Assembly (NCBI GenBank): GCA_035310145.1
Contig: DATGEL010000031.1
Location: 1-53,062 of the forward strand
Direction: 5' to 3'
From: Dehalococcoidia bacterium
Lineage (GTDB): Bacteria; Chloroflexota; Dehalococcoidia; CAUJGQ01
Length of the DNA stretch: 53,062 nucleotides
Of the stretch, positions 51,268 to 52,427 are shown in pieces. Position 1 is the first letter of the stretch, and the number at the start of each line of letters is the position of its first letter. The notes under the pieces were generated by a model that had not been told where the DNA came from, searched no databases, and was given only the letters and a program-made list of their open reading frames with translations. Position numbers and translations under genes: made by a program.

Positions 51268-51490
51268 CACCCCTCCACCACCACGCCGCGCCACCCACTG
51301 GCATGCCGAGTGCGGCGATCGTAGCGTGGCAGGCAGGCGGATCGGGTTTCGGCGCTCACGGGCGGCTGGCCCGATCTGTACGGCCGCTCACACGTGCGCA
51401 GGCCGATCCGCCGCACACCGCCCATGCGGTGTAGACTCGGTGACAACACCGCGGCAATGAGCACCTAATACCCCGGCGCCGGAGGGCCGC

Positions 51491-52087
51491 ATGTCCTGGA
51501 TTCGTGAGGTCGAGCTGCCGCCGGACGATCCCTGGGCGCAGGCCAACATCATGCGCTGCATGAGCATCGACCCGCCGATGCTGCGCGCCGTGGCCCAGCT
51601 CAGCCGCACCGTGACCTTCGGCGGCAGTACGCTGACGCGCGTGCAGGAAGAGCTGATCGCCACCACCGTTTCGACCTGCAACCGCTGCCGCTACTGAACG
51701 ATCTCGCACGGGGCGTTGCTCCGTCATGAAGCCGGCGACGACGCGCTCGCCAACCACGCCATCCACAACGAGGACGACCCGGCGCTCGGCCCACGCGAGC
51801 GCGCCATGGCCGCCTACGCCCGCAAGCTCACGCGCGAGCCCTGGAGCATGACCGCGGCCGATCTGGACGGCCTGCGCGGGACCGGCCTCTCCGAGGAGCA
51901 GGTGCTGGACGTGGTCGCGGTCGCCTGTCTGTTCAACTTCATGACGCGCCTGGCCGACGGCCTCGGCGTGGACATCGAAGAGCGCAAGGCGGCCGCCGTG
52001 CGCCCCTGGCTGGAGCAGCGAACCGGCGCGGGCTGGGATTTTCTGCGCCTGCCGCCGGCGACGGCCCGGCGCTCCGCCGCGGACTGA
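51491..52087 (+). CDS. AhpD-like peroxidase, candidate selenoprotein (TGA codon 69)
   Basis: The 199-codon frame is open except for one in-frame TGA at 51695-51697. Residues 1-68 read as the first AhpD/carboxymuconolactone-decarboxylase half (LPPDDPWAQANIMRCMSIDP, LTRVQEELIATTVSTCNRCR, Y). After the TGA follow TISHGALLRHEAGDDALANH, LGPRERAMAAYARKLTREPW and VVAVACLFNFMTRLADGLGV. The family motif is CxxCxxxH; here it is C66-R-Y-TGA69-T-I-S-H73, so TGA takes the second redox cysteine. A hairpin with a GTT loop starts ten bases later. ATG 51491 has GGAGG upstream. Selenocysteine peroxidase is the simplest reading; nonsense mutation is the alternative. Confidence 0.85.
51708..51724 (+). ncRNA. SECIS-like hairpin in the AhpD-like gene
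   Basis: ACGGGGC, loop GTT, GCTCCGT: seven pairs with one G-U. The apical loop starts 17 bases after the TGA and its first two bases are GU, matching the bacterial SECIS consensus distance and loop. Confidence 0.7.
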
Positions 52088-52091
52088 GGCG

Positions 52092-52427
52092 ATGGAGGAG
52101 CCGTCCGAAGCGATCCAGACGGTCGCCTTGCCCCGCTGCGGGCAGTGCGGGCGCGTGCTGCGGCCGGGATTCCGCCTGCGCGGCGGCGACCTGCGCTGCG
52201 GCCAGCACGTGATCCAGCATCCGGCGGTCTGGAAGCGATCGCTGGCCACGGCCGCGATCGTCGGCACCGTGCTCACGGCGATCAACCAGGGCAACTTCAT
52301 CCTCGGCCACGGCTTTTCCCAGCAGATCCTGCTGAAGATGGGGCTGACCTACTGCGTGCCGTTCTGCGTTTCCACCTCCGGCGCGCTGGGCGCGGCACGC
52401 ATCCGGCCCGAGACGCCCGGCGGCTGA
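52092..52427 (+). CDS. NrtS-like small membrane protein with N-terminal Cys motif
   Basis: A 111-residue protein with a Cys pair region (ALPRCGQCGRVLRPG, LRCGQH) that could hold a zinc ribbon, followed by two membrane spans: KRSLATAAIVGTVLTAINQG and LLKMGLTYCVPFCVSTSGAL, the NrtS nitrate/nitrite transporter family pattern. NrtS forms dimers that move nitrate and nitrite. ATG 52092 follows the AhpD gene by four bases, so both are likely co-transcribed. The Zn-ribbon extension is unusual and may add metal or redox control. Confidence 0.75.
   Translation: MEEPSEAIQTVALPRCGQCGRVLRPGFRLRGGDLRCGQHVIQHPAVWKRSLATAAIVGTVLTAINQGNFILGHGFSQQILLKMGLTYCVPFCVSTSGALGAARIRPETPGG

Follow-up and report, generated by a model that had tools for sequence, protein, structure and literature searches.

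The gene at positions 51491–52087 (plus strand) of the window, the 53,062-nucleotide stretch of Dehalococcoidia DNA analysed here, very probably encodes an AhpD-like oxidoreductase of the TIGR01926 type and CMD fold whose second catalytic cysteine is selenocysteine, inserted by SelB-dependent decoding (probability about 0.96, judged from sequence). We regard it as a clean and strongly supported example of an AhpD-like enzyme with selenocysteine in its catalytic position. The frame has 199 codons, which specify 198 residues and a final TGA, and its sole internal stop is a TGA at codon 69 (51695–51697). The product reads MSWIREVELPP...STCNRCRY-U-TISHGALLRH..., with the motif C66-R-Y-U69-T-I-S-H73. 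The initial annotation had described this frame, with TGA where a CxxC motif would have its second Cys, and had proposed that the domain continues in phase beyond it; both points are borne out. GC3 is 0.912 5′ of the TGA and 0.922 3′ of it, and the protein is identical to its best relative (genome G006) at 34/63 positions before the TGA and 54/107 after it. Because GC at the codon positions is similar and identity is even across the TGA, the two halves behave as one coding unit.

The ATG start at 51491 is supported by the N-terminus MSWIRE, which is shared with both G006 homologues, and a Shine–Dalgarno-like site, GGAGGG (51481–51486, plus strand), lies 4 nt 5′ of the ATG. Standard annotation would end this gene at residue 68 or place its start too late. 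A mechanical open reading frame does run from a TTG at 51716 to 52087, and a functional product of 123 residues could in principle begin there, leaving the upstream part unused. The chance of this is negligible in our view: such a product would be without Glu54, Cys66 and Sec69, the upstream half that it discards is 54% identical to G006 from the first residues onwards, the ribosome-binding-like site precedes 51491, and the TTG begins inside the loop of the SECIS hairpin described below. On the minus strand, an overlapping reading frame at 51356–52300 (314 amino acids) has no Pfam match and was judged to be a mechanical product of sequence with 70% GC.

For the family programs, the in-frame TGA was entered as Cys. 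The recoded protein matches Pfam CMD with 47.7 bits (cut-off of 23) and belongs to NCBIfam TIGR01926, ‘peroxidase-related enzyme’, with 121 bits (cut-off of 81.8). The model NF041238, AhpD_rel_CFYUT (seleno)protein, describes a homologous domain with a C-F-Y-U-T motif that resembles that of the present protein; the match spans positions 175–342 of the 357-position model and, scoring 82.5 bits where the cut-off is 175, leaves the protein outside that family. The match to TIGR00777, an AhpD subfamily model, is weak (16 bits, cut-off of 192). The Cys-type peroxidase-related AhpD structures 2oyo, 6k40 and 3c1l are related to the protein in sequence up to about residue 160, and the two printed alignments, those of 2oyo and 6k40, both have Cys where the present gene has TGA.

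The AhpD-like active site E-x11-C-x2-[C/U]-x3-H is present, and its four positions are invariant in a nine-sequence alignment, A1, in which U was entered as C. They are Glu54 (codon 51650–51652), which aligns with the proton-relay Glu of AhpD (E-x11-C); Cys66 (51686–51688), the first Cys of CxxU; position 69; and His73 (51707–51709), the active-site His of CxxC-x3-H, whose codon supplies, with its last two bases, the start of the SECIS stem. The proton-relay residues of Mycobacterium tuberculosis AhpD are Glu118, Cys130, Cys133 and His137 (PMC3141380), an E-x11-C-x2-C-x3-H site that is matched here by E54, C66, U69 and H73. The M. tuberculosis protein is the adaptor of AhpC.

We searched 393 genomes of the class to which the source genome belongs for relatives of the gene, using a profile built with TGA entered as Cys and accepting matches at E ≤ 1e-15. 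This gave 98 matches in 71 genomes: 55 contain exactly one internal stop, and the other 43 are free of internal stops. The internal stop is TGA in 55/55 cases, and TAA or TAG occurs in 0/98 matches. In all 48 TGA forms read, a set that includes the window gene and a paralogue from its own genome, the TGA is the U of CxxU, usually within C-x-Y-U-T-x-x-H. Opposite the TGA of the window gene, the other 47 TGA forms read have TGA as well, and homologues of the Cys type have Cys, the two states that the initial annotation had predicted for this position; the other stops that it had named as contrary evidence are those missing from the matches. A Cys codon, TGC or TGT, needs a single base change to become TGA, and a decaying pseudogene could have arisen in this way. 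We consider that very improbable, given that dozens of homologues from many families carry TGA at the identical codon without a TAA or TAG among them, that conservation is even on either side of the TGA with GC3 maintained, and that a covarying hairpin is restricted to the TGA forms.

Some of these relatives have several TGA-bearing copies, with a maximum of six in one genome. One genome, G238, has six matches, and a run of four TGA-bearing AhpD-like genes occurs at one of its loci (L109, G238:C22:19250-22500). A contig search that used the protein by itself as query recovered no more than two distant Cys homologues. The paralogue in the source genome (L024, G000:C80:52775-53260, minus strand) is a second TIGR01926 gene with TGA at CxxU (AQDCTYUTQSHA), and a SECIS-like hairpin of nine pairs follows its TGA at the distance seen in the window gene.

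The hairpin of the window gene (51708–51724, plus strand) pairs 51708–51714 with 51718–51724 around the loop GTT (51715–51717). It has seven pairs, one of them G-U, and starts ten bases 3′ of the TGA, as the initial annotation had stated together with its GT-starting loop and bacterial SECIS distance. Its loop starts at a distance of 17 nt from the TGA. The bSECIS model has an apical loop of 3–9 nt, with G as one of its first two bases, located 16–37 nt after the UGA (PMC13188914); the GTT loop, its distance of 17 nt and the covariation of the stem agree with that description. Considered by itself, the hairpin is weak evidence and ordinary for such GC-rich DNA. Its folding energy is no better than that of shuffles (z = 0.49), at least seven such pairs are found at 11.8% of sampled positions in this window of 70% GC, and the codon-shuffle test gives P = 0.053. 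A scan of 51400–52200 against Rfam at a permissive threshold matched no family.

Comparison across the relatives carries more information. The best hairpin is at the identical position in nearly all TGA forms read; the exceptions are G216, G242 and G092, in which the best stem has its loop at 26 nt, G328 and G131 (loop at 33 nt), as well as G271 and G341d, in which a different stem, at 25 nt, had the higher score. Across 32 distinct TGA sequences, 94.6% of cells are paired, compared with at most 57% when the partners are slid. Two-sided changes number 29 cells versus 10.1 ± 3.8 in shuffles, and although 0/500 shuffles reach 29, this fraction is not a probability because the shuffle control ignores relatedness. 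That concern is addressed by the control with slid partners and by the Cys forms. Covarying pairs include C-G/G-C/U-A at columns 17–27 and G-C/A-U/C-G at columns 20–24. The first loop base is G in 37/39 distinct TGA sequences as opposed to 2/26 distinct Cys sequences. Pairing at the outermost position is seen in 79% of TGA forms and 4% of Cys forms. Because the loop G and the outermost pair are largely confined to TGA forms, the hairpin goes with the TGA; the protein sequence by itself does not account for it. On the strength of these sequence comparisons, we consider that the hairpin is a bacterial SECIS element. In a TGA subgroup with the motif CAYUTKAHS (L119, L120 and L121), the hairpin at the usual place is absent and a longer stem places its loop 26 nt 3′ of the TGA, which suggests that the SECIS of this subgroup was gained separately or moved. 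The coexistence of Cys and TGA forms in one class, with the SECIS in the TGA forms only, provides a data set for the gain and loss of SECIS elements.

The source genome, a draft of 5.32 Mb in 148 contigs (99.8% complete), has the machinery for selenocysteine insertion. We found full-length selB (E = 7.3e-97, 325 bits, cut-off of 242), selA (E = 8.8e-156, 520 bits), selD (E = 3.5e-109, 366 bits) and tRNA-Sec (selC; 74 bits, ARAGORN anticodon TCA). The initial annotation had held that an absence of selB or selC would speak against a selenoprotein; the presence of the whole set, together with the relatives and the covarying SECIS, supports its reading of the gene as one. These genes are spread over different contigs, and contamination is possible gene by gene, but the level reported for the genome as a whole is 3.6%. 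The tRNA-Sec model also matched a second sequence (contig C104), which proved to be a tRNA-Ser carrying the anticodon TGA. The selD gene (L019, G000:C119:309-1241, minus strand) has an in-frame TGA of its own, in SCGGUASKVG (SCGGU), and SelD of this genome thus appears to be a selenoprotein itself. Were TGA read as another residue, for example Trp or Cys, by a general change of code or a suppressor, neither the TGA that ends this same gene nor the complete Sec system would be expected, and TGA would not always stand for the catalytic Cys with a covarying SECIS following; we give this explanation almost no weight.

Among the relatives checked, strong tRNA-Sec matches (66–70 bits) occur in the TGA-form genomes G001, G021, G054, G025 and G056, and genomes with Cys forms only (G033, G059 and G031) have matches of at most 49 bits. 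A strong tRNA-Sec match was not found in G006, the closest relative, which is approximately 80% complete and has two TGA genes; its SelB is above the cut-off, at 347 bits with the pieces joined. Two genomes of the class, each one contig of 1.4–1.5 Mb, have 26–27 matches to the reductive dehalogenase family, as Dehalococcoides does, in keeping with a probable placement of the class as Dehalococcoidia (Chloroflexota).

The UGA at 51695–51697 would be decoded by Sec-tRNA-Sec brought by SelB, which would in turn be recruited by the hairpin with its loop starting 17 nt after the UGA. Sec69 would then form the AhpD proton-relay site with Cys66, Glu54 and His73. By analogy with AhpD, Sec69 is the likely nucleophile on peroxide or another oxidised substrate, with Cys66 as a possible attacker too, and a Cys66–Sec69 selenylsulfide may form and subsequently be reduced by a thiol partner. 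Sec insertion itself, the peroxidase chemistry, the substrate and the reducing partner are inferred.

A gene for an NrtS-domain protein (52092–52427, plus strand; NF038050 NrtS, 35.6 bits, cut-off of 25) begins 4 nt after the selenoprotein stop, encodes a short Cys-rich N-terminus (CGQCGRVL...RCGQH) and is possibly co-transcribed with the selenoprotein gene. A speculative and rather unlikely extension is that the multiplied Sec-AhpD paralogues have separate substrates and constitute a lineage-specific selenium-based defence against peroxide or nitrosative stress, instead of one generic AhpD; if this were true, the NrtS-type neighbour would be functionally linked.

AhpD-like selenoproteins with CxxU are known from other bacteria, as the initial annotation had stated: 27 sequences were reported in the Sargasso Sea survey (Zhang et al. 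2005, PMC1088965), the GOS survey lists AhpD-like 1 and AhpD-like 2 selenoproteins (PMC2398784), and a table in a 2026 review has the line ‘AhpD-like protein, TIGR01926, CxxU’ (PMC13188914). As the family has been known since 2005, the window gene adds a member to a known selenoprotein family, and the multiplication of the gene in relatives and the uniformity of the SECIS make it mildly interesting. The known TIGR01926 protein (PMC1088965, PMC13188914) and the window gene share the family, the CxxU motif and a hairpin immediately after the UGA, and Cys homologues are widespread in both settings. Nothing essential differs between them; what the relatives examined here add is a TGA copy number that reaches six in a genome and a SECIS of great uniformity (17 nt, 3-nt loop).
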